Source: a virus
Length of the DNA: 20,665 nucleotides
Reading direction: 5' to 3' (one strand)
Virus record (IMG/VR): IMGVR_UViG_3300043446_002364
Location: 1 to 20,665 of that record
The translations under genes and the position numbers were made by a program. Positions 1,369 through 11,897 of this stretch are shown here, in pieces. Numbering within the stretch: the first letter of the stretch is position 1; every line of letters starts with the position of its first letter. The notes under the pieces are model-generated. The model worked only from the letters and a program-made list of their open reading frames with translations, did not search any database and had not been told where the DNA came from.

Positions 1369-1390
1369 GCCGGGGAGGTGAGTCCCCGGC
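1369..1390 (-). promoter_or_regulatory. Leader hairpin before the 1347 gene
   Basis: Perfect inverted repeat with 7-bp arms GCCGGGG/CCCCGGC (1369-1375 and 1384-1390) and an 8-base loop, lying in the predicted 5' leader between the promoter and the ribosome site. There is no U-run after it, so it is not a terminator. Similar hairpins precede most genes in this arm. Confidence 0.6.
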
Positions 1391-1404: not shown

Positions 1405-1433
1405 AGTGTACCACGGTCGGGCTTGGCTGTCAA
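1405..1433 (-). promoter_or_regulatory. Early promoter module a
   Basis: Read on the minus strand: -35 TTGACA (1428-1433), 17-base spacer GCCAAGCCCGACCGTGG, -10 TACACT (1405-1410). It is one of six copies with the same -35, the same spacing and a related spacer sequence. GGGAGGC precedes the -35, as in the other copies. It should drive the genes from 1347 leftward. Confidence 0.8.
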
Positions 1434-1443
1434 GCCTCCCGTA

Positions 1444-2550
1444 TTACCGGGCAGATACCATCGGTCTGGAATAGAAACCAAAGCCTACTTCTTTTGGTGT
1501 TAGGGTAGCCGTAAACTGTACGGTATCTCCTATCTTCCATTCAGCGGACCTCGGTACGGACCCATAGAGTTTGTACCCTTGGCATTGAAGGGTAATCTTA
1601 AGTGTTTCACCGAAGTCGGTGGACACATACTTCATGGATAGAATCTTGCCGGTTACGGCATGGCGTCCGGTTGGGACAGGTGCGTTGCAATCTTCGCTAT
1701 TGGTACTGATATCCCAACGACGATGCCATCCGGTCATATAGGCAATGTCTTTTGCCTTGCACCAATCCTGTTCAAGAATGCGAACCATATCAGGTTCGTC
1801 CTTGGAAAATTCCACGAACTTGGCGTAGCGTTCAGGATCAAAAACAAAATCTTTCTCCATCTCATAACGAGACCAAGAATGGTTTAGGATATCCCGGCAC
1901 CGACGCCACGTTGCATTGTCGTTGCGGTTATCCCATTGATCCTTCGACGGTATATAGGGTTCACGCTTAAGGTATTCCAAGATACGGAATATCTTTTGCA
2001 CTTCATGCCATCCATCGGTCAAACCTTGAATGCAAGATTCGTCGAACTCCTCATTGTCAAGGTTGACAACAAGATGCATTGCTTCCGATATGGCAGACAA
2101 TGCCTTCACCAAATCGGTTGGAATATACTGGGCAACGCAGTTGCCACCAACCTGAAGCCGCTCCGTTCCACGGTTAATAACAAACGTTTCATTGCGTTTG
2201 ATATTCATGCCGCAGACTTGGCAATCCTGCGACGAAACTTTCGTTTCCCGGTAAGACTTTCGCATATCGGCATCCGTCAATGCCGATCCATACCATTCCC
2301 AAAGGTTACCTTCACGACGGGCAACCAGTTGCCAACCATCTGGCAAATTCGGAATGGATAAAACTACGGGAATCACGGCGATCGGCGTGGATTTTTGCCC
2401 AACGTTTTCGCCCTCCGACGTATAGGTCCATACCCTTCTGGCAATATATTCATTGCCATATTCCACGGTAATACCGGGATGATTCCCCATTGCTCGGGCA
2501 ATAAGTTTCTTGAACTTATCTATATTGCTGGGATGAACAAGCAGATTCAT
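1444..2550 (-). CDS. Putative zinc-binding protein with C-terminal OB-like segment (368 aa)
   Basis: Complete frame starting at ATG 2550, overlapping the upstream stop as ATGA. Residues 110-113 are CQVC, followed by a patch NRGTERLQVGGNC with a third Cys at 138. This CxxC...VGxxC arrangement is seen in a widespread but uncharacterised phage and plasmid protein family and probably binds a metal. The last 70 residues (G-K-I-L-S...KLYGSVP...VQFTATL) alternate in a way that suggests a small beta barrel, possibly an OB fold. The combination hints at nucleic-acid binding, but the function is unknown. It ends 11 bases before the -35 region of early promoter a. Confidence 0.8.
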   Translation of the reverse strand: MNLLVHPSNIDKFKKLIARAMGNHPGITVEYGNEYIARRVWTYTSEGENVGQKSTPIAVIPVVLSIPNLPDGWQLVARREGNLWEWYGSALTDADMRKSYRETKVSSQDCQVCGMNIKRNETFVINRGTERLQVGGNCVAQYIPTDLVKALSAISEAMHLVVNLDNEEFDESCIQGLTDGWHEVQKIFRILEYLKREPYIPSKDQWDNRNDNATWRRCRDILNHSWSRYEMEKDFVFDPERYAKFVEFSKDEPDMVRILEQDWCKAKDIAYMTGWHRRWDISTNSEDCNAPVPTGRHAVTGKILSMKYVSTDFGETLKITLQCQGYKLYGSVPRSAEWKIGDTVQFTATLTPKEVGFGFYSRPMVSAR

Positions 2551-2891
2551 ATTTCCTCCTCCGTAACCGGGACAACACGATTCCCATTACACTCATAGCA
2601 AGTGACATCGTACATACCAGAGAAATAATCTTCCCTGAAGTCGGGATCGTCGAAGTCTTCCGAAGTTAATCCCCCACAATCAATGCTAGGGTTAACGTGG
2701 GTGCCGGTTCCCCGGCAAGTGTCACACACTTCGTAATGACACTTGACTTTACGTTCCACCTCGTCACCATTCTCATCTTCATTGATGACGATGGCGGTCA
2801 TGGTCCGCTCGTCGAACGAGACATACCATTTAGGTTCATTCCGGGCTTGAACCCGATAGTCCCGACGATATTCGCAATCAGTATCGTACAT
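2547..2891 (-). CDS. Small DnaJ-zinc-finger-like protein (114 aa)
   Basis: Complete frame from ATG 2891 with AAGGAG seven bases upstream. It contains CDTCRGTGT at residues 56-64 and CYECNGN at 98-104. These are two CxxCxG half-sites like those of DnaJ zinc fingers, separated by about 35 residues that include VNPSID and GLT. Proteins with this layout are common in phages and plasmids, usually annotated as hypothetical. A zinc-binding role is inferred from the four cysteines. It is coupled to the 368-residue Cys protein downstream through ATGA overlap, so the two putative zinc proteins are probably made together. An intercistronic hairpin (2915-2936) lies just upstream. Confidence 0.8.
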   Translation of the reverse strand: MYDTDCEYRRDYRVQARNEPKWYVSFDERTMTAIVINEDENGDEVERKVKCHYEVCDTCRGTGTHVNPSIDCGGLTSEDFDDPDFREDYFSGMYDVTCYECNGNRVVPVTEEEI

Positions 2892-2914
2892 AGAGTTCTC
2901 CTTTAGGGTAGGGT

Positions 2915-2936
2915 GCCGGGGTATTTCTACCCCGGC
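2915..2936 (-). promoter_or_regulatory. Intercistronic hairpin with GAAA loop
   Basis: Perfect 9-bp arms GCCGGGGTA/TACCCCGGC with a GAAA tetraloop when read as minus-strand RNA. It sits between the ArdC stop (2945) and the ribosome site of the next gene and has no U-run. It could be an RNA-processing or mRNA-stabilising element. Confidence 0.65.
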
Positions 2937-2944
2937 GAAGTAGT

Positions 2945-3838
2945 TTAGAGTTCGACTTCGATAGTGTCCTCTTCAACCTTGGGTGTATAGATTTTCTCCT
3001 GAGGGAAGAGAAGATCAAACGCTTTCTGTGCAGCACTTACTGCACGGATATACATCATGGGGTCGGCTTCGATTCGACCGGCCCAACCGGCACAGTAACT
3101 AACAATCTGTTCTTGGCAACGTGGGTCATCAATCCCGAAGTGCTGAAGGGTAAGAGCCGCTGTCAACTCAGCGACCAACTCCTCCTTGGCATAGCCATTC
3201 GGCTCAAAAGTATCTTGATCGAACCGACCAAGGTAGTTATCATGGCCGGTGGCATGGCCCAATTCATGGGCAAATGTCTGGTAAAAGACATTCTCCGAAT
3301 CGAACTGCTGGGGTTTGGGCAGTCCGATTGCATGACGAATCGGGCTATAGAAAGCCTTGTCTCCACCGTATTTCAAACCGACTTTGATTCGGCTACCAGC
3401 CGACTTCAATTCGGATTCAATATCCGTTTCTTGCCAAGGCTTATTAATTTCTGCCGGTTCAAGACCATCAACTTGGTCTCGGTTGAATACCCAATAAGGC
3501 TTTGCTATTGGGATACGTTTGATGGTGGAGACACCATCAACTTCCTTCTCATCCTCAAAGGTGCCGTAATAGACTACGGTCGTAGCCTTCTCACCTTTAC
3601 GGACATTGCCACCGATAGACTTCCACGCTTTATAAGTAGCCCATTGACCGGTTTCGTAACCGGCCAATTCTCCGGTTGCCCAAAGCAACCAAAGATTCAT
3701 TCCACGATAGGGGGTATTGTGAACTCCGTTAATGGGCCTGATATGGCCCATAGATTTCCACGGCTTGACCCAAGGGCTTTTACCTTCGGCCAAACTCTTC
3801 TTTACGGCTTCAACGATGGGTTCAAGTGTACGGTTCAT
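2945..3838 (-). CDS. ardC: ArdC-like anti-restriction protein with zincin motif
   Basis: Complete 297-residue frame from ATG 3838 with AAGGAG six bases upstream. Residues 1-130 match the ArdC N-terminal (DUF1738) pattern: GKSPWVKPW, NTPYRGMN, the TYKAWKSIGGNVRKGEK block and then PYWVFNRDQ. That domain is known to bind single-stranded DNA. The C-terminal half holds the metallopeptidase motif HELGH at 191-195, with acidic residues about 25 further on (EELVAEL) as the likely third ligand. In conjugative plasmids ArdC protects incoming DNA from host restriction, and an early anti-restriction role fits this position. It is the first gene behind early promoter b. The gene symbol rests on family similarity only. 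Confidence 0.88.
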   Translation of the reverse strand: MNRTLEPIVEAVKKSLAEGKSPWVKPWKSMGHIRPINGVHNTPYRGMNLWLLWATGELAGYETGQWATYKAWKSIGGNVRKGEKATTVVYYGTFEDEKEVDGVSTIKRIPIAKPYWVFNRDQVDGLEPAEINKPWQETDIESELKSAGSRIKVGLKYGGDKAFYSPIRHAIGLPKPQQFDSENVFYQTFAHELGHATGHDNYLGRFDQDTFEPNGYAKEELVAELTAALTLQHFGIDDPRCQEQIVSYCAGWAGRIEADPMMYIRAVSAAQKAFDLLFPQEKIYTPKVEEDTIEVEL

Positions 3839-3862
3839 ACATTACTCCTTGTAGGGTAGAGA

Positions 3863-3878
3863 GCCGGGGCGACCCGGC
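3863..3878 (-). promoter_or_regulatory. Leader hairpin before ardC
   Basis: 6-bp arms GCCGGG/CCCGGC around a 4-base loop (UCGC in the minus RNA), between early promoter b and the ardC ribosome site. No U-run follows. Confidence 0.55.
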
Positions 3879-3892
3879 GAAGCGACGGTGGA

Positions 3893-3921
3893 ATCTTACC
3901 ACGCCGAGGCTTGGCTGTCAA
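3893..3921 (-). promoter_or_regulatory. Early promoter module b
   Basis: Minus strand: TTGACA (3916-3921), 17-base spacer GCCAAGCCTCGGCGTGG, -10 TAAGAT (3893-3898). Upstream of the -35 is TTTGGAGGCGGGC, shared with copies c and d. Drives ardC and the two Cys proteins. Confidence 0.8.
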
Positions 3922-3939
3922 GCCCGCCTCCAAACTATA

Positions 3940-4299
3940 CTACTGATACGATTCGGGATTCTCATTGAATCCCTTGCAGCCTACGACTTTGCCTTCCGAA
4001 TCACGGACAAGGTCGGCAGGACAGAATACGTCTGTCCTACCCTGTTTCCATGCAGCATTGGCGACAATGCTGCTAACAATATAGTAATTGCCATCTGGTT
4101 CAGGAAGATCCTGTATATCTCCGAATGTAGTTGCGAAAATGTCAATCCCAAAAAAGACTCCTGTCCTTTGGGATTTTGTGGCGACCCTTGCCACCATTCC
4201 GCTAGGTGGAATGGTATGAGTTGTATCCCCAATGATATTGATTTCATGGGGGGTAAGGTTGACGAACCGTACATCTTGATACGTTGTAGATATAGCCAT
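3940..4299 (-). CDS. LTPHEI-motif hypothetical protein (119 aa)
   Basis: The start chosen is ATG 4299, one base after the upstream stop (TGA at 4303-4301), with GGAG eight bases before it. Translation from further upstream would overlap the preceding gene. The N-terminus reads VRFVNLTPHEINI and is followed by IPPSGMVARV. Proteins with an NLTPH..I motif and a PPSG..ARV segment recur as uncharacterised small proteins in phages and archaea. Near the C-terminus are YYIVSSIVANAA, DVFCPAD and GKVVGCKGF, also typical of that set. The function is unknown. It is the last gene of the unit driven from promoter c. Confidence 0.78.
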   Translation of the reverse strand: MAISTTYQDVRFVNLTPHEINIIGDTTHTIPPSGMVARVATKSQRTGVFFGIDIFATTFGDIQDLPEPDGNYYIVSSIVANAAWKQGRTDVFCPADLVRDSEGKVVGCKGFNENPESYQ

Positions 4300-4300
4300 G

Positions 4301-4588
4301 TCAGTTGCTCCATTCCTCAATACGGGCCACCATCTTTTGGATGGCAAGATAGTTGATGATATTGCGGTGAATTTTACGATTCACCTGTGCCTTGCCAGAG
4401 CCTATCTCCCAGTTATCGGCAAGGCGTTCAATGCTTTGGCGAATAGCACTAGACTGTAGTCCACTTACGGTATACGCCGTAAGGGTATTTATGATTAGAG
4501 TCTGGTCGAAGGGACGGCCAGCCGCCATGTCCCTTGCCATACGATTGACATAATTCCGAATCTTGTTGATATGCCACAGACGATTCAT
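4301..4588 (-). CDS. Hypothetical helical protein (95 aa)
   Basis: Complete frame from ATG 4588 with AAGGAG seven bases upstream. The product is basic and appears all-helical (IRNYVNRMARDMAAG, NYLAIQKMVARIEEW), with no Cys cluster or membrane segment. No family was recognised. A strong 10-bp hairpin (4611-4634) precedes its ribosome site and separates it from the gene upstream, while it joins the LTPHEI gene with a 1-base gap. Confidence 0.72.
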   Translation of the reverse strand: MNRLWHINKIRNYVNRMARDMAAGRPFDQTLIINTLTAYTVSGLQSSAIRQSIERLADNWEIGSGKAQVNRKIHRNIINYLAIQKMVARIEEWSN

Positions 4589-4610
4589 GGATTTCTCCTT
4601 AGGGGGAAGT

Positions 4611-4634
4611 ATGGGGGATATTACTATCCCCCAT
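4611..4634 (-). promoter_or_regulatory. Intercistronic hairpin with GUAA loop
   Basis: Perfect 10-bp arms ATGGGGGATA/TATCCCCCAT around a GUAA tetraloop (GNRA class) in the minus RNA. It is followed by ACTTCCCCCTAAGGAG, that is, directly by the ribosome site. No promoter is visible here, so the element is intercistronic, like 2915-2936. Confidence 0.65.
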
Positions 4635-4641
4635 TGGGTAT

Positions 4642-4953
4642 TTAGAACTTGCCTCGAAGTCCAGCCTCAAGGCAACGCAGTCCCGATTGAACCACTTTGA
4701 TCTGGTTCAGGGCTTGCTCAACGCAGAAGGCTTCCCTATCTGCAATATCGAATACAAGAGTCCATTCGGACCTAATAGCCCAGAATGGAGAATCTTGCTC
4801 AATACACTCCCATACCGTGGCATCCACGGTCCTATCAATGGACCTCAGAACCATCCGGAAGTTATCGTTGTTGGTGCGAATTGTGTATTCGGCATCTGCA
4901 ATGATGCTATACAACCCGGCAACAATCTGAAGGTTCTTGGCAGTCTTAGTCAT
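4642..4953 (-). CDS. Hypothetical protein (103 aa)
   Basis: The chosen start is ATG 4953 (MTKTAKNLQ) with AAGGAG six bases upstream. A longer open frame reaching 5022 would run into the promoter c region and is rejected. The product is 103 residues with Trp-containing segments (ATVWECIE, FWAIRSEW) and a C-terminal basic helix. No family was recognised. It is the first gene behind promoter c and its hairpin at 4975-4995. Confidence 0.75.
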   Translation of the reverse strand: MTKTAKNLQIVAGLYSIIADAEYTIRTNNDNFRMVLRSIDRTVDATVWECIEQDSPFWAIRSEWTLVFDIADREAFCVEQALNQIKVVQSGLRCLEAGLRGKF

Positions 4954-4974
4954 AACGTACTCCTTAAGGGTAGT

Positions 4975-4995
4975 GCAGGGAGGCTGGCTCCCTGC
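4975..4995 (-). promoter_or_regulatory. Leader hairpin before the 4953 gene
   Basis: 8-bp arms GCAGGGAG/CTCCCTGC with a 5-base loop, between promoter c and the ribosome site. Stem position relative to the gene is the same as at 3863-3878, although the stem sequence differs, so the structure rather than the sequence seems to be kept. Confidence 0.6.
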
Positions 4996-5012
4996 GGGGC
5001 GACGACGGGAAG

Positions 5013-5041
5013 ATTCTACCACTTGGAGGCTGGGCTGTCAA
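5013..5041 (-). promoter_or_regulatory. Early promoter module c
   Basis: Minus strand: TTGACA (5036-5041), 17-base spacer GCCCAGCCTCCAAGTGG, -10 TAGAAT (5013-5018). GGAGGCAGGC lies upstream of the -35. Drives the three genes between 4953 and 3940. Confidence 0.8.
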
Positions 5042-5058
5042 GCCTGCCTCCATATGGA

Positions 5059-5406
5059 TTAGTAGAGCATATCCCAATCGAAGGGAATGACAACTCCCCT
5101 TCGGAAGAATTGGGATTTCTTGCCGTCCCAATAATGCCAGACGTTGGCAGTCTGGCTGATCCTTCCACCAACCATACTCAACAATGCATTGAGACGGCTT
5201 TTCGTGGTTGCCGTTTTCCAATTGGCGTCTGTCAAATGCAACTCATAGTTGCCATCCGCATTGGGTTCGATTGTGGCAATGGTATTGCCAAACAATCTCA
5301 CAGTACAGGTATGGGACTGGCAATCCCAAGATACCGTAGTGTTAACGCCATTCATGGCTTTGCCATTTTTAATGGCGGCAATCATTTGCTGTTCGATCTT
5401 ACGCAT
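5059..5406 (-). CDS. Hypothetical protein, possibly DUF8033-like (115 aa)
   Basis: Complete frame from ATG 5406 with GGAG nine bases upstream. The middle of the protein has alternating beta-type sequence (CTVRLFGNTIATIEP, YELHLTDANWKTATTKSRLNALL is a striking block). A block of the type W-x-T-x-TTKSRLNALL is one I associate with small uncharacterised phage proteins (possibly DUF8033), but this is a memory-level match only. Single-gene unit behind promoter d, ending 18 bases before the -35 of promoter c. Confidence 0.72.
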   Translation of the reverse strand: MRKIEQQMIAAIKNGKAMNGVNTTVSWDCQSHTCTVRLFGNTIATIEPNADGNYELHLTDANWKTATTKSRLNALLSMVGGRISQTANVWHYWDGKKSQFFRRGVVIPFDWDMLY

Positions 5407-5431
5407 TGTTGTTTACTCCATACAGGTCGGT

Positions 5432-5446
5432 GCCGATCGGCTCGGC
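5432..5446 (-). promoter_or_regulatory. Leader hairpin before the 5406 gene
   Basis: 5-bp arms GCCGA/TCGGC with a 5-base loop in the leader downstream of promoter d. It is weaker than the others but at the equivalent position. Confidence 0.4.
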
Positions 5447-5462
5447 GGGGCAACGTGGCGAC

Positions 5463-5491
5463 ATTCTAGCACGGCTCGGCTTGGCTGTCAA
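5463..5491 (-). promoter_or_regulatory. Early promoter module d
   Basis: Minus strand: TTGACA (5486-5491), 17-base spacer GCCAAGCCGAGCCGTGC, -10 TAGAAT (5463-5468, one mismatch to consensus). Upstream is TTTGGAGGCAGAC. The block GCCTCCAAA followed by CATAATGC on the plus strand also flanks promoter e. Confidence 0.82.
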
Positions 5492-5496
5492 GTCTG

Positions 5497-5760
5497 CCTC
5501 CAAACCATAATGCTAATGTCCCATGACAATGCTCCATATATGGACCCATATATGCGTATCGCATTCCATGCCATGCATTACCGTGTCACATTATGGTGAA
5601 TGCATTGATGGCGTACCGCGCCATGCATAAAACATATATGTATATGCAGGAGAAGGAGGCTGTCACCTCCGCTGGGTCTCGCACACGCGCGTAGGCGTAC
5701 CCACATATATGCAATACGCAGTACGGATTAACACTACGCCATAGTGTCAATCGTATATAT
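5497..5760. other. Non-coding repeat-rich region 1
   Basis: No convincing gene on either strand. It is rich in CATATATG, ATGCAT and CATAATG words and holds one copy of the 18-bp motif (5660-5677), followed by GTCTCGC and a short alternating CACACGCGCG stretch. The same order (motif, GTCTCGC, alternating tract) recurs at 6521 onward in a longer form, so the two regions look related. The words CATATATGCAAT and GACAATGC also occur in both. Confidence 0.6.
5660..5677 (-). repeat. 18-bp motif copy 1
   Basis: Plus strand CTGTCACCTCCGCTGGGT, the reverse complement of the ACCCA..GGAGGTGACAG motif. It is identical to the copy at 6521-6538. GGAGG immediately precedes it (5655-5659), giving a short hairpin GGAGG/CCTCC. 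Confidence 0.75.
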
Positions 5761-5796
5761 GGAAAACGGTAGGGGAAGATTGCTCTCCCCCTACCG
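5761..5796 (-). terminator. Terminator after the 5803-6102 gene
   Basis: 9-bp arms CGGTAGGGG (5767-5775) and CCCCTACCG (5788-5796) with a 12-base loop. On the minus strand the stem is followed by TTTTCC, and it lies 7 bases beyond the stop codon at 5803. Confidence 0.7.
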
Positions 5797-5802
5797 CCAA
5801 AC

Positions 5803-6102
5803 TCAGAAAGCGTATGGCAACTTGGGATTTACCATAAGGTCTTTCACATCTTGCAACAACATGATTGCCTTAACCTGTTCAAGGCGTTGCATTGCAGATT
5901 TTTGACCCCAAATATTCAAGGCAAGATTGCTATCCCGAATAAGCCGTTGGGCTTCTTCGTACCTTGCAATTCGACCCTTCCCCTTGAATGCTTTTCGTTC
6001 AATTTGGTAAAGGGTATTGAACAAATGTTGCGACGGATCAATCCGGTTATGCAACATATCAATCATAAGGTCCAAGATGTGAACGTACTGAGCAACTGTC
6101 AT
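5803..6102 (-). CDS. Hypothetical helical protein (99 aa)
   Basis: The chosen start is ATG 6102 (MTVAQYVHIL) with GGAGG six bases upstream. The frame is open to 6186, but that longer version would begin inside the -35 box of promoter e. The product looks all-helical and basic, with no Cys and several aliphatic heptads (LDLMIDMLHN, QRLEQVKAIMLLQDVKDLM). It could be a small coiled-coil protein. No family was recognised. Single-gene unit with its own promoter and terminator. Confidence 0.75.
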   Translation of the reverse strand: MTVAQYVHILDLMIDMLHNRIDPSQHLFNTLYQIERKAFKGKGRIARYEEAQRLIRDSNLALNIWGQKSAMQRLEQVKAIMLLQDVKDLMVNPKLPYAF

Positions 6103-6157
6103 GGTATTCCTCCAAAGGGAATGAAGCGGCGAAGCGACGATTCGCAACGACGCCGAC

Positions 6158-6186
6158 ATTAAATCACGGCGAGGCTTGGCTGTCAA
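6158..6186 (-). promoter_or_regulatory. Early promoter module e
   Basis: Minus strand: TTGACA (6181-6186), 17-base spacer GCCAAGCCTCGCCGTGA, -10 TTTAAT (6158-6163). TTTGGAGGC is present upstream, but 11 extra bases separate it from the -35 compared with copy d. Confidence 0.8.
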
Positions 6187-6460
6187 GGAATCGGCCCAGC
6201 CGCCTCCAAAACATAATGCTTTATAGCCAATAGAAATCTATCTATATGGGACCATTATGCTAATGGAATTTGGCATAGTGGAATTTACAATGGGACCGAA
6301 GCCGGTATTGTATGCATAAATTGGTACTGTACCAACGAATTAATACAGTACCGCATCCCGTGACAATGCCCAGCATACTCCAAAGCATATATGCAATGCG
6401 TAGCATTATGTGTTAATGCCTAGCATTATGTAATGCATTTGCATTATGCATACCCGTGCA

Positions 6461-6478
6461 ACCCAAGGGAGGTGACAG
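6461..6478 (+). repeat. 18-bp motif copy 2
   Basis: ACCCAAGGGAGGTGACAG. It forms an inverted pair with the copy at 6521-6538 (16 of 18 positions can pair), with 42 bases between the arms. Confidence 0.75.
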
Positions 6479-6520
6479 CCCCGCGCCCGTGCAATGCGCG
6501 TGTGTGCGCGAGGGAAAACC

Positions 6521-6538
6521 CTGTCACCTCCGCTGGGT
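6521..6538 (-). repeat. 18-bp motif copy 3
   Basis: Plus strand CTGTCACCTCCGCTGGGT, identical to copy 1 and the right arm of the inverted pair with copy 2. It is followed by GTCTCGC and the alternating GT/GC tract. Confidence 0.75.
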
Positions 6539-6545
6539 GGGGTCT

Positions 6546-6668
6546 CGCGTGTGCGCGTGTGCGCGTGTGCGCGTGTGCGCGTGTGCGCGTGTGCGTGGGT
6601 GCGTGTGGGTGGGTGCGCGTGTGCGTGTGCGTGGGTGCGTGTGCGTGGGTGTGTGTGTGGGTGGGTGC
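6546..6668. repeat. Alternating purine-pyrimidine GT/GC tract
   Basis: From 6546 to 6597 the sequence is a perfect 52-base alternation of pyrimidine and purine, built on an 8-base unit GCGTGTGC. From 6598 to 6668 it degenerates into GTGGGTGCGTGT-type repeats with several GGG runs. Such tracts favour left-handed Z-DNA under negative supercoiling, and the GGG-rich part could fold as a G-quadruplex. Long frames reading through it are repeat artefacts. Confidence 0.85.
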
Positions 6669-6700
6669 GAAAAAAAATCCCTCCCCCGAAGGGGAGGGAT
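6669..6700 (-). terminator. Strong intrinsic terminator with UUCG loop
   Basis: Perfect 10-bp arms ATCCCTCCCC/GGGGAGGGAT (6677-6686 and 6691-6700) with a UUCG loop in the minus RNA, followed by eight T. It lies 7 bases past the stop of the 6708-6971 gene. Confidence 0.92.
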
Positions 6701-6707
6701 TCGGACG

Positions 6708-6971
6708 CTACTTTTTGGGGTAGCAGAAGCCGTTGACGATAACGTAGACCGGTTGACCACCTACGGTGATCTTTGTCCGCATCTTGCTGTATGCTACCGA
6801 CATGGTCTTCTCCGAACCGGAGAGTTTCGGTTTCCGGAGAGGAACCGAGATCTCCAAAGACTTCTTGTCGGCAGAGAGTTTCACCGTCATTTCCGGAACC
6901 AAGGCGATCGGTTCGTCGGAGACGATCTCCGGAGACGGAGAAGCAGCGATATTCTGTTTTGCAGTAGCCAA
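6708..6971 (-). CDS. Hypothetical protein with TTG start (87 aa)
   Basis: The start is taken as TTG 6971, with AAGGAG eight bases upstream (AAGGAGTACCTACC then TTG). The only upstream in-frame ATG (7049) lies inside the promoter f sequence and would not be on the transcript. The product begins (M)ATAKQNIAASPSPE, then has beta-type segments (EMTVKLSADKKSLEISVPL, TKITVGGQPVYVIVNGF) and ends YPKK. No family was recognised. It has its own promoter and a strong terminator, so it is an isolated, probably highly expressed unit. Confidence 0.72.
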   Translation of the reverse strand: MATAKQNIAASPSPEIVSDEPIALVPEMTVKLSADKKSLEISVPLRKPKLSGSEKTMSVAYSKMRTKITVGGQPVYVIVNGFCYPKK

Positions 6972-7039
6972 GGTAGGTACTCCTTCGGAGTGTGGACGGT
7001 GCTGGGTGATTCCAGCGAGGCCGGCGAACCGACATGGCC

Positions 7040-7068
7040 ATTCAATCACGGCGACGTTTGGTTGTCAA
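7040..7068 (-). promoter_or_regulatory. Early promoter module f
   Basis: Minus strand: TTGACA (7063-7068), 17-base spacer ACCAAACGTCGCCGTGA, -10 TTGAAT (7040-7045). The most diverged of the six copies, yet the 3' half of its spacer matches copy e exactly (TCGCCGTGA). A 5-bp hairpin (7001-7016) lies in its leader. Confidence 0.75.
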
Positions 7069-7193
7069 GGCCGGCCTCGGACTTACTTCGTAAAAAATTT
7101 TTCGGAGCCGCCAACCAGCCGAGCCGAGGACTCCCTTTGGCCTCCTTCGGAGGCCGCGCCCGTATACGCATATGCGCGAGGACTCCAATTTCA

Positions 7194-7212
7194 ACCCGAA
7201 CGGAGGTGACAG
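7194..7212 (+). repeat. 18-bp motif copy 4 (one base longer)
   Basis: ACCCGAACGGAGGTGACAG. The core GGAGGTGACAG (7202-7212) is exact, and the left part carries one extra base relative to copy 5. Confidence 0.65.
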
Positions 7213-7236
7213 ACCCCCCAAGGGAAGCCCCACCCC

Positions 7237-7254
7237 ACCCAACGGAGGTGACAG
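7237..7254 (+). repeat. 18-bp motif copy 5
   Basis: ACCCAACGGAGGTGACAG, in direct orientation to copy 4 with the cores 42 bases apart. It is followed by GCGGGACTCC. Confidence 0.75.
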
Positions 7255-7354
7255 GCGGGACTCCGACACCTAAATTCTCATCCCTATATATCTATTTCTC
7301 CCGACGTAGAAACGCCATATTGGAGTATCTCATCATGCAAATGGATTGTCATTG

Positions 7355-7382
7355 TTGCCAATAACTTTACAACTGGTATGAT
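7355..7382 (+). promoter_or_regulatory. Promoter of the thyX operon
   Basis: -35 TTGCCA (7355-7360), 16-base spacer, -10 TATGAT (7377-7382), each one mismatch from the sigma70 consensus. With usual spacing the transcript would start at or next to A7389, which is the first base of an in-frame ATG. Confidence 0.72.
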
Positions 7383-7388
7383 TTGGTT

Positions 7389-7679
7389 ATGGACAAGGTG
7401 ATGCCTGAGGAAGTGTTCAAGGAGTCTGTCGAACGAGCTGACAAGAAGGCTATTGTTTGGGACGAGTTGAATAGTGCAGTGATTGGTAGTGCGCGTATAT
7501 GGCGCGATGGCGAGTGGCGGGATGTGTTGGTGTATGGGTTTGACCGGGTATGCGACGCGGTGCATATCGCTGGTACTGGCGATGACGACTATTCGGATGC
7601 CGTTGACTTTGTCGAGTACAACATTGCTGGTGCATATGTTGGTCCGTATACGCCGTTGTTGGTGAGGGAGTGGGTGTGA
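7389..7679 (+). CDS. Hypothetical protein (96 aa), possibly leaderless
   Basis: Plus-strand frame ending at TGA 7679. ATG 7389 (MDKVMPEEVF) is chosen because it falls at the predicted transcript start; ATG 7401 is the alternative but its only purine-rich sequence (AAGGTG) abuts the codon. The product is acidic, with Trp-rich strands (ARIWRDGEWRDVLVYGF) and an acidic loop (GTGDDDYSDAVDF). No family was recognised. First gene of a three-gene operon with thyX, followed by a 4-base gap. Confidence 0.68.
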   Translation: MDKVMPEEVFKESVERADKKAIVWDELNSAVIGSARIWRDGEWRDVLVYGFDRVCDAVHIAGTGDDDYSDAVDFVEYNIAGAYVGPYTPLLVREWV

Positions 7680-7683
7680 ACGA

Positions 7684-7884
7684 ATGCCGACAAAGCCGTT
7701 GCCGTTTTACGAGAAGGATGCTGTTCGTTGGCATGATCTCGTCGTTGATTCGACGAGTGAATTGCGTCGTGTTCTACGCGCTTGTGCGAATTCACACTAT
7801 GCCACTCAGATTGAGGCGGTTGTTTGGCAGCTTGAGAACGTCACGAAGGACATTCACCAGACGCTGAAGGACCGTAAGCGGTGA
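7684..7884 (+). CDS. Small hypothetical protein (66 aa)
   Basis: Frame from ATG 7684, four bases after the upstream stop, with a GAGGGAG stretch 13 bases before the start. Its TGA overlaps the GTG start of thyX (GTGA), so translation of the two is probably coupled. The product is mixed helical (TSELRRVLRAC, ATQIEAVVWQLENVTKDIHQTL), with no motif recognised. Placement directly before thyX suggests a role in replication or nucleotide metabolism, but that is only context. Confidence 0.7.
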   Translation: MPTKPLPFYEKDAVRWHDLVVDSTSELRRVLRACANSHYATQIEAVVWQLENVTKDIHQTLKDRKR

Positions 7885-8540
7885 GTGTTGAGCTGATTTC
7901 GATCACGCCTGAGGCTGAGAAGCTTATTGGGTACTGCGCTAGGGTGTCATCGCCGGAGAATCAGGGGAACGACGCTGCAAAATTGCTGCGTTACTGCATC
8001 AAGCATGGACATTGGAGTCCGTTCGAGATGGCGCATATGGTTGTTGGGGTGGAAACTACCCGGCAAATCAGCGCACAGATGATCAGGCACCGTAGTTTTG
8101 CGTTTCAGGAGTTCAGTCAGCGGTATTCAACGGTTCGGAATACCCCTGTTTTGCCTTCTATGCGCCTATCTGGGGCGACGAATAGGCAATCATCGCGTGA
8201 TGAGCCGCTCAATGGTACTCAAAGGGCTATCGTGGAACGTGCGAACGCTCTTATGAACTTGATTTACAAGTCGTATGAGCAGATGATTGAGCATGGAATA
8301 GCTAGGGAATCCGCTAGGGCGGTGTTGCCCATGTGTTCGTACACAAAATTGTACATGGCCGGGTCCATACGGTCGTTCCTGCACTACTGTCAGGTGCGTA
8401 TGACGGAAGATACGCAGGTTGAACACAGGGAAATAGCGGAAGCCATAGCCAAATTGCTTGAGGAACAGGTGCCTGTCATCTGGGATGCTTTCATCAAGCA
8501 TCATGCAGGTTATGATTCGTCTATTTCCCAGTCGTCGTGA
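7881..8540 (+). CDS. thyX: Flavin-dependent thymidylate synthase ThyX
   Basis: 219-residue frame from GTG 7881, overlapping the upstream stop. The ThyX signature RHR-x7-S is present: R69-H70-R71 and S79 within RHRSFAFQEFSQRYS. Further family features are the early HGHWSPFEM block (residues 42-50) and the C-terminal substrate region ARAVLPMCSYTKLY followed by SIRSFLHYCQVR. ThyX makes dTMP from dUMP using methylene-tetrahydrofolate, FAD and NADPH, and forms tetramers. Length is normal for the family. Its stop overlaps a convergent minus gene by 31 bases. Together with the nearby dUTPase, which makes dUMP, it forms a thymidylate supply pathway. Confidence 0.96.
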   Translation: MSVELISITPEAEKLIGYCARVSSPENQGNDAAKLLRYCIKHGHWSPFEMAHMVVGVETTRQISAQMIRHRSFAFQEFSQRYSTVRNTPVLPSMRLSGATNRQSSRDEPLNGTQRAIVERANALMNLIYKSYEQMIEHGIARESARAVLPMCSYTKLYMAGSIRSFLHYCQVRMTEDTQVEHREIAEAIAKLLEEQVPVIWDAFIKHHAGYDSSISQSS

Positions 8541-8764
8541 AGCAGGATGTCGGATATCAACAGGAATTTGACCGTATCAACCAATGCGGTAGTCTCTTTG
8601 TGATCCTTCGGCAGATAATGAAGAGTGTCATCGAATGGATCGAACACGACAAACTTGGCTATTCCAGCCATATCCAGATCTTTCACGATCGTTACTCCTG
8701 TTGGTCTGGATACGGATGTGGCTGTTCCATCAATAAGCTTTTCAAGGGCTTTTGGTCCTGTCAT
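8510..8764 (-). CDS. Hypothetical protein downstream of dut (84 aa)
   Basis: The chosen start is ATG 8764 (MTGPKALEKL) with AAGGA six bases upstream. The frame is open further back into dut, but only this start has a ribosome site. The product has a central FVVFDPFDDTLHYLPKD segment and an acidic end (LLHDDWEIDES). No family was recognised. It lies 85 bases after dut and probably shares its transcript; that gap contains a 9-bp inverted repeat AACCGTTGC/GCAACGGTT (8797-8805, 8833-8841). It converges on and overlaps thyX. Confidence 0.7.
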   Translation of the reverse strand: MTGPKALEKLIDGTATSVSRPTGVTIVKDLDMAGIAKFVVFDPFDDTLHYLPKDHKETTALVDTVKFLLISDILLHDDWEIDES

Positions 8765-8849
8765 TTTGTTTCCTTTCAATGATAGAATGAGCGTGGAACC
8801 GTTGCGCTCGGTGATGCCAATCTCTTGGGAGTGCAACGGTTTCGCTACG

Positions 8850-9287
8850 TCAGGTTCCGGTTGATCCAAGACCGCCGCTTCGCTCTTTATCCACGTTGAT
8901 ATCGGGTACTGCGACAGGCACGAACAACAACTGGGCAATACGATCTCCAGCGTATATGGTCATCATTGAGGGATCTTGCGTCACCTTGGTCAATATGACC
9001 TTGATCGTGTCGCGATAGTCCGAATCAATGATGCCCGGTGCGTTGACAACCATGATGCCATGCTTTGCAGCAAGACCGGAACGAGAACACACCATGCCGC
9101 AGAATCCATGAGGGATTGCGGTGACGGCCTTGGTGTCAATGATCGTGATGTTGCCGAACTCCACGACGGCGACATGGGCGGCGATCAAGTCAATACCTGC
9201 GGAACCCCCGGTCTGGGGCAACAACTCGTTGCAACCACCCTCGGACAACACCATCAAACCTGTCGTTTCCTGTGGGACGAACTTCAT
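8850..9287 (-). CDS. dut: dUTP pyrophosphatase (dUTPase)
   Basis: The start is ATG 9287 (MKFVPQETTG), with AGGAG six bases upstream; the two upstream ATGs lie on or before the ribosome site. The protein is 145 residues, the usual length of a trimeric dUTPase, and all five motifs are visible: AGIDLIA (30-36), SRSGLAAKHG (68-77), GIIDSDYRDTIKV (85-97), GDRIAQLLF (114-122) and the C-terminal lid ERSGGLGSTG (135-144). It hydrolyses dUTP to dUMP and pyrophosphate, limiting uracil in DNA and feeding ThyX. A palindrome (9302-9317) just upstream may be its operator. Confidence 0.96.
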   Translation of the reverse strand: MKFVPQETTGLMVLSEGGCNELLPQTGGSAGIDLIAAHVAVVEFGNITIIDTKAVTAIPHGFCGMVCSRSGLAAKHGIMVVNAPGIIDSDYRDTIKVILTKVTQDPSMMTIYAGDRIAQLLFVPVAVPDINVDKERSGGLGSTGT

Positions 9288-9301
9288 TACCTTCTCCTGC
9301 A

Positions 9302-9317
9302 TTGACAAATATGTCAA
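9302..9317. promoter_or_regulatory. 16-bp palindrome, candidate operator upstream of dut
   Basis: TTGACAAATATGTCAA: perfect 6-bp arms TTGACA/TGTCAA separated by 4 bases, 15 bases before the dut start. The left arm is also the -35 box of a plus-strand promoter, so a protein bound here would affect both directions. Confidence 0.6.
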
Positions 9318-9330
9318 AGCATACTACAAT
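9302..9330 (+). promoter_or_regulatory. Consensus-like plus-strand promoter with no gene behind it
   Basis: -35 TTGACA (9302-9307), 17-base spacer, -10 TACAAT (9325-9330): 11 of 12 consensus positions. The transcript would start near 9337 and meet the hairpin at 9353-9391 at once. No coding frame follows on this strand before the convergent endolysin gene. Confidence 0.6.
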
Positions 9331-9347
9331 ACCAACTAGGCAGACGC

Positions 9348-9391
9348 AAAAAAAAGAGGGACCACGGTGGAGACTGCCGTGGTCCCTCTTT
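9348..9391 (-). terminator. Strong terminator after the endolysin unit
   Basis: 15-bp perfect arms (9353-9367 and 9377-9391, containing GAGGGACCACGG) with a 9-base loop. On the minus strand the stem is followed by eight T. On the plus strand TTTGTTT follows, so it may also stop transcription from 9302-9330. Confidence 0.92.
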
Positions 9392-9437
9392 GTTTAGGAG
9401 AAGGAGAACCGACTAGAAACAACGCAATTGTACGTTA

Positions 9438-9989
9438 TTAGAAATCAACAAGCAATACGCCACCATATTCTCCAAGCTCCGACCAACGACGGTCTTTCAT
9501 AAATACTCCATCGCCATCGCGTTCAACCTCGTCCGCATCCTGAGGTTCTGGACTGGTGTTGCCCTCCACGGTGGTGAGGCCACGCTTGGATACCTTGGTT
9601 ATGATTCCAATGTGGGCGATACGGCCCAGCATAGGGAAGTAGAACAACGCCAGATCGCCGGGAAGCAAACGAGTGTACGCATCTCCCGATTTCAAATCGG
9701 ATGCGGATACCCACTTGTTGTTTGCCTTGGCCCACCTGCTCCAGTCGGGCGTGTACCCACTACGAGGAAACGTGGCGTCATACACCATGTTTAGTTTGCT
9801 CGCAGCTGCCTTCATCCGAAAACGAACGAAAGCGGCGCACCAAGGAGAACCGGGAGGAATCGAAGGAACACACGCGGCTTGATACGCTTCGACATACGTT
9901 CCACGATTCTCACCCTCTTCCTGCACACCAATGTTGGCAATCGCACCGAACGCGGTAGCCTCTGCAATAGGACGTTTCTCTGGCCTCAT
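9438..9989 (-). CDS. Probable endolysin, CHAP/NlpC-P60-like amidase (183 aa)
   Basis: The chosen start is ATG 9989 (MRPEKRPIAE), which overlaps the upstream stop as ATGA; there is no good ribosome site, so coupling is likely. The pattern is that of a CHAP-type papain-fold hydrolase: GSPWCAAFVRF with putative nucleophile C51, PGDLALFYF at 110-118, AHIGII with H126, and VEGNTS with E142/N144 as the third polar residue. Such enzymes cut peptide bonds or the amide link in peptidoglycan. No signal peptide or separate wall-binding domain is visible, so export would need a holin; a virion-associated lysin is the alternative. Followed by the strong terminator at 9348-9391. Confidence 0.85.
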   Translation of the reverse strand: MRPEKRPIAEATAFGAIANIGVQEEGENRGTYVEAYQAACVPSIPPGSPWCAAFVRFRMKAAASKLNMVYDATFPRSGYTPDWSRWAKANNKWVSASDLKSGDAYTRLLPGDLALFYFPMLGRIAHIGIITKVSKRGLTTVEGNTSPEPQDADEVERDGDGVFMKDRRWSELGEYGGVLLVDF

Positions 9990-10372
9990 CGAAACTTGGA
10001 TGCTTTCTTTGCAATTGATTTTGGTTGGGCAACAAACTGTTTTCCAGCAGCATTGCCCTTGGCCTTGGCTGCGTTGGTTGCAGCCTTCTCGGATGCGGAC
10101 AAGGAAGACCACGCCTTGTCGGGAAGATAACGCTTCTTGCCTTCGCTGGGCGTACCATCGCTGGTGCGCCACTTCTCCTTTGTCCACTTCGACAAGCTGT
10201 TGTCGGATTCCTTGGGACCGCTGTAACCACCACCACGTTTTTTGTATTCCGTCACAGCCATCTGTGCTTTCCTAGCAGACCACTCGCCGGGATCGCCACC
10301 CTTGCTGCTTGCCTTTGCCTCGGCCACCACCTTGTCCCACAGCTTGGGATTGGAACGTTTCGCACTACTCAT
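9986..10372 (-). CDS. DUF5872-like basic protein (128 aa)
   Basis: Complete frame from ATG 10372 with GGAG eight bases upstream. The sequence follows the DUF5872 pattern: NPKLWDKVVAEA, then GGDPGEWSARKAQMAVTEY, KKRGGGY, SLSKWTKEKWRT, RYLPDKAWSSLS and a Lys/Ala-rich end (KQFVAQPKSIAKKASKFR). This domain is seen in phages and large DNA viruses and has no known function. The product is very basic, so nucleic-acid binding or packaging into the virion is plausible. It is translationally coupled to the endolysin, an unusual partner, and preceded by 23-bp tandem repeats. Confidence 0.85.
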   Translation of the reverse strand: MSSAKRSNPKLWDKVVAEAKASSKGGDPGEWSARKAQMAVTEYKKRGGGYSGPKESDNSLSKWTKEKWRTSDGTPSEGKKRYLPDKAWSSLSASEKAATNAAKAKGNAAGKQFVAQPKSIAKKASKFR

Positions 10373-10399
10373 GGGATAATCTCCAGTCTCTTCAGGGTA

Positions 10400-10449
10400 T
10401 CAAACCTTGCAGGGGGAGGACATCAAAACCTGCAGGGGGAGGGTGTCAA
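10400..10449 (-). repeat. 23-bp tandem repeats upstream of the DUF5872 gene
   Basis: Two complete 23-base units start at 10400 and 10423, and a partial third at 10446; the shared core is TGCAGGGGGAGG. On the minus strand TTGACA, TTGATG and TTGATA fall at the unit joints, exactly 23 bases apart, which equals the -35 to -10 period. This may be a promoter or operator array for the lysis unit, though no good -10 is present. Confidence 0.6.
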
Positions 10450-10469
10450 AAACAGTACCCTCACTACGT

Positions 10470-10497
10470 TTAACTAGAACCAACTTAACTAGAACCA
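10470..10497. repeat. 15-bp direct repeat upstream of the 10516 gene
   Basis: TTAACTAGAACCA occurs at 10470-10482 and 10485-10497, a 15-base period. It lies between the divergent DUF5872 and membrane-protein genes and could be a regulator site. No clear -10 box accompanies it. Confidence 0.5.
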
Positions 10498-10515
10498 TTG
10501 AACAAGGAGTATGTC

Positions 10516-10836
10516 ATGGAAATCATTGCGTTCATTCTAGTCGGCCTATTGCTTGGTCTCCTTATCGGCAGGATGTTCGATGTTATTTTTTCGGCACATC
10601 AACCACGGGGACGCTGGTGCGTTGTCTTTCATAACAAAGAAAAGAAAACATATTCCGCTGCAACGTTGGCATATCAAGCAAATGAAGAAGACAAGTTCGT
10701 TGCAATCAAGCTATACGATGCACGACTTGATACCTTTCGCGAAATACCAATGTTTATCAGTAGGGATAAAGTACGTTTCTATCACGATGATGGAGAACCA
10801 ATTCGCAAAGATAATATAGATCGGTTTGCAAATTAA
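10516..10836 (+). CDS. Small membrane-anchored protein (106 aa)
   Basis: The start is ATG 10516, with AAGGAG six bases upstream. Residues 3-20 (IIAFILVGLLLGLLIG) form one clear transmembrane segment, followed by a basic, probably cytoplasmic region of about 80 residues with beta-type sequence (WCVVFHNKEKKTYSAATL) and a charged C-terminus. No family was recognised. A single N-terminal membrane helix near an endolysin could suggest a lysis accessory or membrane-bound regulator, but the gene is divergent from the endolysin, so the link is weak. Confidence 0.75.
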   Translation: MEIIAFILVGLLLGLLIGRMFDVIFSAHQPRGRWCVVFHNKEKKTYSAATLAYQANEEDKFVAIKLYDARLDTFREIPMFISRDKVRFYHDDGEPIRKDNIDRFAN

Positions 10837-11587: not shown

Positions 11588-11665
11588 AATCAAGGGGTTT
11601 TTTTCCTTTCCCCCTTGATTCCAATGCCAGCCATCTTTCTATTCCGGTGGCTGGCATTGTGTTTT
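11588..11665. terminator. Double-hairpin bidirectional terminator between ssb and HTH gene
   Basis: First stem AATCAAGGGG/CCCCTTGATT (11588-11597, 11611-11620), second stem AATGCCAGCCA/TGGCTGGCATT (11623-11633, 11648-11658). The second is followed by GTGTTTT on the plus strand. The genes on both sides converge here. Confidence 0.8.
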
Positions 11666-11870
11666 ATGCTTTGGGCGGGCCAATCATACCGACAGCATTG
11701 AGCAAACGTATGTTCCTGCGCGTACCATTGGGAATGCGATAGATGGCGTACAGCAACTGCAAACGATAGTTGACGGAACGAACGCTGATGCCTAGACGCT
11801 CCGACATTTCCTTTGCCGTGAGTCCTTCGGCAATCAGTTCAAGCAACTCAACCTCTTCAAATCTATTCAT
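11664..11870 (-). CDS. Small LuxR-type HTH protein (68 aa)
   Basis: The start chosen is ATG 11870 (MNRFEEVELLEL), eight bases after AGGA; an ATG at 11879 overlaps that ribosome site. Residues 8-50 match the LuxR/GerE helix-turn-helix: LLELIAEGLTAKEMSERLG, then ISVRSVNYRLQLLYAIYRI. There is no receiver or ligand domain, so this is a bare DNA-binding domain, as in GerE-like and small phage regulators. The tail ends AVGMIGPPKA. It is likely a transcription regulator, perhaps of late genes. It is transcribed divergently from the small-gene chain that starts at 11946. Confidence 0.85.
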   Translation of the reverse strand: MNRFEEVELLELIAEGLTAKEMSERLGISVRSVNYRLQLLYAIYRIPNGTRRNIRLLNAVGMIGPPKA

Positions 11871-11897
11871 GCTGCACATCCTATAAAGTTTGCGACA

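Follow-up and report, generated by a model that had tools for sequence, protein, structure and literature searches.

Why should the promoters of one gene block resemble each other in the spacer between the −35 and −10 boxes as well as in the boxes themselves? The question is raised by a 20,665-base fragment of an uncultured phage (IMG/VR record IMGVR_UViG_3300043446_002364), which was analysed whole and is called the window here. On the minus strand below 7.1 kb it carries a block, which we infer to be early, with an ArdC-like antirestriction gene, a Kyano_Gp96-like gene and small genes of no known kind; terminase and portal-like genes lie on the plus strand beyond it. Six promoter modules serve this block, and we lean towards the view that in each of them the −35 box and the adjoining part of the spacer are bound by one regulator, probably a repressor.

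The six promoter modules

A first-pass annotation had described six minus-strand sites in which TTGACA is followed, after exactly 17 bases, by a −10 box, and all of them are present exactly as described (P1 to P6, Table 1). The −35 boxes, TTGACA in every case, start at 1433, 3921, 5041, 5491, 6186 and 7068; the coordinates given in that annotation (1405, 3893, 5013, 5463, 6158 and 7040) mark the low end of each −10 box. Those of P5 (TTTAAT) and P6 (TTGAAT) are poor −10 boxes, as the key A at position 2 is missing. Every module (6/6) stands at the start of a transcription unit. TTGACA occurs 21 times on the minus strand of the window and has T[AT]NNNT exactly 17 bases on in 6 cases, compared to about 0.7 expected. 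A generic promoter scan is not striking alone (21 found versus 14 ± 3.8 in shuffles), and the case therefore rests on the spacer. The annotation had also placed TTTGGAGGC or a relative upstream of the −35 box and had taken the set to be genome-wide. The upstream element is good at 3921, 5041 and 5491 only, the other three modules having it out of place or degenerate. All of the sites in fact fall within one 5.7-kb minus-strand block (1.4–7.1 kb), with none in the other 15 kb, and in the sequence examined the regulon does not reach beyond the early block.

Conservation of the spacer in the window and in related genomes

The window spacers are far more alike than chance, as had been claimed for them. 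At spacer positions 1–8 their mean pairwise identity is 0.83, compared to 0.37–0.38 in composition-preserving shuffles (z about 10.5), a value reached by 0/1000 and 0/500 shuffles in two runs. Positions 15–17 (GTG, identity 0.76) are partly the TGn of an extended −10 box.

The first-pass annotation had proposed looking for the same conservation in related genomes. Among close relatives, none was found to include the early region; the contigs whose TerL is 99% identical are 4–7 kb long and hold the structural side only. The nearest contig with an early region (G001, also numbered L096; 22,885 bases, TerL 87%) carries eight minus-strand modules with GCCAAGCC in common. This motif is common to the window and G001 though the alignable early proteins are only 32–39% identical (39% for the ArdC-like protein, 32% for the product of open reading frame (ORF) 1444–2550). 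The strong sites of both are confined to 17-nt promoters of the early strand, and none was found away from promoters in either contig, both being fragments. A third contig (L046, TerL 71–72%) has seven further promoters with spacers of 16–18 nt and a different proximal spacer, GACCAGAC or GACAGGAT (also GACAGG).

Spacer similarity had led to some of the G001 sites in the first place; the promoters were accordingly picked again, blind to the spacer, with TTGACA-17-T[AT]NNNT as the sole criterion. Picked in this way, the promoters of both relatives keep spacer 1–8 beyond chance: identity is 0.83 in the window (n = 6), 0.71 in G001 (n = 5) and 0.65 in L046 (n = 6) against a null of 0.28–0.38 (z 7.8–10.5), and 0/500 shuffles were as high in each. 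Five unrelated promoter-rich phage contigs served as controls (L186 and its kin, which lack spacer 1–8 conservation, were used for this purpose) and gave 0.26–0.30 against a null of 0.25–0.27 (z 0.7–3.0). From this spacer-blind test in three genomes against unrelated controls we conclude that the constrained element in the lineage is TTGACA and the next 6–8 bases, the 3′ half of which is lineage-specific. At positions 9–14 identity is 0.54 in the window, 0.32 in G001 and 0.27 in L046 against nulls of 0.32, 0.32 and 0.25, that is, at null in both relatives, and conservation of the upstream 14 nt is seen in the window (z 7.4) and weakly in L046 (z 3.4) but is lacking in G001 (z 0.2).

The first-pass annotation had explained the conserved spacer either by a mobile promoter cassette or by a spacer-binding regulator, and these figures bear on that choice. 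Had a cassette been copied recently, the spacers would be alike for want of divergence time; the likeness of the window modules in the upstream 14 nt and at spacer 9–14 as well (z 4.6), and four near-identical 30-bp blocks in L046, are what such copying would leave. In G001 and L046, however, similarity falls sharply outside the core and conservation is concentrated in 14 bp. We favour a regulator over a cassette because conservation stops outside TTGACA and the 6–8 bases in G001 (L046 having weak upstream conservation besides), because the window and G001 share GCCAAGCC across such diverged early proteins, and because sites in L046 and in a further contig, G023, persist off the −35 box (see below). 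Recent cassette copying is thus very unlikely as the source of the conservation, although some local copying is likely, as seen in the window upstream flanks and the L046 blocks.

A symmetric operator, GGCTTG-N5-CAAGCC, was considered and rejected: it is perfect at 1433 and 3921, but G001 does not conserve its left half (upstream z 0.2–0.5). Searching viral contigs for TTGACAGCCAAGCC-N5-GTG returned three contigs, about chance level, and a looser pattern returned 37, with two exact hits only in G001 and L186. A crude test for 8-mers enriched upstream of ORFs did not pass its own positive controls, and we set it aside.

Sites separated from the −35 box

L046 contains 11 copies of CTTGACAG(A/T)C. 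Those at 2890, 2539, 2188 and 1791 have no −10 box at 17 nt and sit instead in the spacer between TTGCAG or TTTCAG and TACCAT, TACAGT or TAGACT. In G023 (TerL 72%) the orthologue of an L046 gene has kept CTTGACAGACAGG at its promoter, while the core that follows differs. Both genomes retain the site where it is no longer the −35 box, which indicates that the site is separable from that box.

It could be argued that no regulator is involved and that the host polymerase or its sigma factor simply prefers an extended −35 box. In most copies the element does directly adjoin the −35 box, and its sequence varies between phage lineages, whose hosts may differ; the four L046 sites and one G023 site, on the other hand, have the element off the −35 position. 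Sigma-70 region 4 is not known to read DNA 6–8 bp downstream of the −35 box, which also counts against a host preference. We judge this explanation distinctly unlikely, if a little less so than the cassette.

Inverted repeats around the −35 box

In some modules the spacer is also one arm of an inverted repeat. The repeat around the P3 −35 box starts directly after the stop codon of ORF 5059–5406, and a weaker one surrounds that of P2 (Table 1); in G001 the module at 8739 has a strong one (z −5.9). When left flanks and spacers of G001 are swapped, the mean minimum free energy of pairing changes from −16.3 to −12.2 kcal/mol (p 0.001); covariation of the arms holds at p at most 0.01 with any one module left out, and at p 0.0002 for the window and G001 together. 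The covarying arms of G001 are consistent with a hairpin at the upstream transcript's end.

The modules might on these grounds be composites of terminator and promoter, similar to the promoter-early stem-loop (PeSL) of T4-type phages: the upstream transcript would end at a hairpin with the spacer as its 3′ arm and TTGACA in or near its loop. The preference of G001 left flanks for their own spacers, the perfect arms at 8739 and 4088 in G001 and at 5041 in the window, and the start of the P3 hairpin just past a stop codon all fit such an arrangement. However, there is no significant hairpin at window 6186 and 7068 or at several G001 modules, the L046 spacer is conserved without an inverted repeat (swap p 0.18), the window arms pair equally well when swapped (p 0.30), the stems in the window and G001 lack a following T-run and complementarity of arms cannot account for the same GCCAA across genomes. 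Since several modules, and L046, have no inverted repeat or only an insignificant one, the repeat does not explain the spacer conservation, and we consider the composite an unlikely explanation.

A proposed operator on each early promoter

We therefore return to a regulator, and suggest, as the more probable reading, that one protein binds the −35 box and proximal spacer of many promoters. Each module would be a host sigma-70-type promoter in which the −35 box, the preceding base and the next 6–8 bases (CTTGACAGCCAAGC) form an asymmetric operator. Once bound, the regulator would lie across the −35 box and exclude RNA polymerase, and the separately driven early transcription units would switch together. 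Since the −35 boxes are already perfect, repression is likelier than activation. On this reading the regulator would be phage-encoded, and the promoters would act early and answer to one signal.

Several observations weigh against this reading. The base before TTGACA is C in all sites of the window and L046 but in only 2/8 of those in G001, where the inverted repeat explains part of the variation at spacer 7–17. The four shifted L046 sites are probably one event, since they lie in near-identical 30-bp blocks. Lineage-specific conservation would likewise follow if the host polymerase intrinsically preferred an extended −35 box. Finally, a tblastn search of the loci examined with Bxb1 gp69 and SkiPole gp84 found no repressor homologue (best E 0.28), the contigs being fragments.

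A small protein of the GerE/LuxR helix-turn-helix type is encoded at 11664–11879 on the minus strand, and its place is conserved in 16/25 related contigs. As a candidate for the regulator it is unsupported: the TerL relatives that carry it include site-less ones, and its own gene has no site.

If the proposed reading is right, spacer conservation beside the −35 box is enough to recognise a regulon-wide operator in the bare sequence of an uncultured phage, and it would allow testable predictions as to which phages have early control or immunity in common. Multi-operator control of the L5/P1 type would be extended to a lineage without an isolate, and the specificity half of the site would evolve while its promoter half stays fixed.

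Other features of the window and related contigs

The modules, repeats and hairpins of the window are listed in Table 1. The site of P6 is the most diverged of the six, and P2 probably drives ORFs 2547–2891 and 1444–2550 too. Many early genes, whether or not they have a promoter, carry a GC-rich hairpin just before the Shine–Dalgarno sequence; the window has five, with differing stems. In G001 about 14 near-identical hairpins, GCCCCGG..CCGGGGCACCG, stand directly before the Shine–Dalgarno sequence (3186–10772, minus strand), more than half of them without a promoter, and these are a start-associated element.

Table 1. Promoter modules, inverted repeats, hairpins and terminator of the early block
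Feature	Position	Strand	Description
P1	1405..1433	−	TTGACA-17-TACACT; operator-like site CTTGACAGCCAAGC at 1421–1434; drives ORF 1039–1347
P2	3893..3921	−	TTGACA-17-TAAGAT; site CTTGACAGCCAAGC at 3909–3922; drives ArdC-like antirestriction gene 2945–3838
P3	5013..5041	−	TTGACA-17-TAGAAT; site CTTGACAGCCCAGC at 5029–5042; drives ORFs 4642–4953, 4301–4588, 3940–4299
P4	5463..5491	−	TTGACA-17-TAGAAT; site CTTGACAGCCAAGC at 5479–5492; drives ORF 5059–5406 (Kyano_Gp96-like)
P5	6158..6186	−	TTGACA-17-TTTAAT, weak −10; site CTTGACAGCCAAGC at 6174–6187; drives ORF 5803–6102
P6	7040..7068	−	TTGACA-17-TTGAAT, weak −10; site CTTGACAACCAAAC at 7056–7069; drives ORF 6708–6971 (TTG start)
Inverted repeat around P3 −35	5024..5052	−	TGGAGGC-A-GGC-TTGACA-GCC-CA-GCCTCCA; z −5.4 vs flank shuffles
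Weaker inverted repeat around P2 −35	3906..3930	−	GAGGC-G-GGC-TTGACA-GCC-AA-GCCTC; z −1.1, not significant alone
5′-leader hairpin	1369..1390	−	GCCGGGG..CCCCGGC, between P1 and Shine–Dalgarno
5′-leader hairpin	3863..3878	−	GCCGGG..CCCGGC, between P2 and Shine–Dalgarno
5′-leader hairpin	4975..4995	−	GCAGGGAG..CTCCCTGC, between P3 and Shine–Dalgarno
Start-associated hairpin without promoter	2915..2936	−	before ORF 2547–2891
Start-associated hairpin without promoter	4611..4634	−	before ORF 4301–4588; different stem ATGGGGGATA/TATCCCCCAT
Intrinsic terminator	6675..6702	−	after ORF 6708–6971

The long non-coding stretches of the early block hold five copies of GGAGGTGACAG with CCCA/TGGG flanks, in both orientations (5655–5677, 6461–6482, 6520–6543, 7196–7216 and 7238–7258), which may be an origin or sites for a second regulator. 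CA and CG repeats alternate over about 120 bp (GTGTGCGC units, 6549–6669) beside a strong terminator. A palindrome, TTGACAAATATGTCAA, with TTGACA on both strands lies between an intrinsic terminator and the dUTPase gene (9302–9330) and could be either a dyad operator of a different type or a divergent promoter. On the minus strand, 10395–10455 is taken up by three direct repeats, imperfect and about 24 bp each (TTGACACCCTCCCCCTGCAGGT-like).

Other contigs showed promoter arrangements of their own. L214, L186, L187, L203 and L206 are large phage contigs with TTGACA-17-TATAAT before many small genes, and some of them have a perfect −35 hairpin, AAGGGCATTGC-TTGACA-GCAGTGCCTTTTT, like terminator/promoter composites. 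An unrelated 61-kb phage contig (G003, also numbered L097) has two perfect 17-bp sites, GGCTTGACAGCCAAGCC, about 90 bp apart and divergent (36741–36848); a small helix-turn-helix-like gene lies downstream of one of them.

A megablast of the window against the phage collection gave no match. Its TerL has only partial matches, at 26–30%, to Arthrobacter, Rhizobium, Roseobacter and Vibrio phages; TerL relatives were also sought in genome contigs in order to infer the host from prophages, and none was found there. An Rfam search gave no credible match.

Comparison with known systems

T4-type PeSL cassettes reportedly (Arbiol, 2010) combine a strong sigma-70 early promoter with a stem-loop and occupy small intergenic gaps of the variable early region. 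Some of our modules likewise join a sigma-70 promoter to a stem-loop, but the conserved part here is a fixed 14-bp block, the stems have no T-run and the window is, on present evidence from TerL, not a T4-type phage. PeSL cassettes are mentioned in PMC4503421. The SAS/ESAS elements of cluster K mycobacteriophages recur in front of start codons, and an inverted repeat lies upstream of about half of them (PMC3203893). The leader hairpins of the window also precede start codons; they differ in being single GC-rich stems with varied arms, and the SAS 13-mer GGGATAGGAGCCC is absent from the leaders inspected.

In phage P1 a single repressor, C1, serves about 22 dispersed asymmetric operators (PMC8546580), the arrangement that we propose here. 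P1 is an Escherichia coli phage, and its 17-bp operator, ATTGCTCTAATAAATTT, is unrelated in sequence.

The repressor of cluster A mycobacteriophages binds asymmetric sites ending TCAAG, that of L5 being GGTGGMTGTCAAG (PMC3029335). The A13 and A15 stoperators are GCTTGGGTGTCAAG and GGGGATTGTCAAG, and positions 2–8 track immune specificity (PMC5559632); the L5/L1 operator overlaps Pleft (PMC1934351, PMC5712189). Like these, the site proposed here is asymmetric, 13–14 bp long and read along transcription, consists of CTTGA(CA) and a specificity half, and is present in many copies. The window sites overlap the −35 box and proximal spacer of an early promoter (6/6), and their complements all read G...TGTCAAG (6/6), in line with the invariant G1 and terminal TCAAG of cluster A. 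D29, which has the L5 consensus in common, contains 25 CTTGACAKCCACC sites at no more than one mismatch; 3/25 are at promoter-like spacing (e.g. CTTGACAGCCACC...TAGAGT), some of them exactly at the −35 box with the −10 box 17 nt on, and those at 48299 and 48426 have the same geometry as the window sites.

The differences from cluster A are also clear. All six window sites are at promoters, whereas 3/25 are in D29 and 5/32 in Bxb1. The trailing G, invariant in cluster A, is kept by only 2/8 G001 sites. Cluster A genomes have 20–34 sites, most of them off promoters and some in structural genes; in the window and G001, both fragments, no strong site lies off a promoter, and the structural genes of the window have none. 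The window TerL is not recognisably that of cluster A. No tyrosine integrase was found in 25 related contigs, all incomplete (serine integrase and parABS were not searched). The system is thus not shown to be cluster A. The complement of the window site, GCTTGGCTGTCAAG, matches A13 GCTTGGGTGTCAAG at 13/14 positions and L5 GGTGGMTGTCAAG at 11/13; because seven bases are forced by the −35 box (6/7 match beyond them in A13) and several consensus sequences were compared, the near-match to A13 is a lead, not proof. A repressor unrelated to cluster A Rep may instead have converged on an operator at every early −35 box, the half beyond that box serving as an immunity code that changes with lineage; we hold this to be unlikely.

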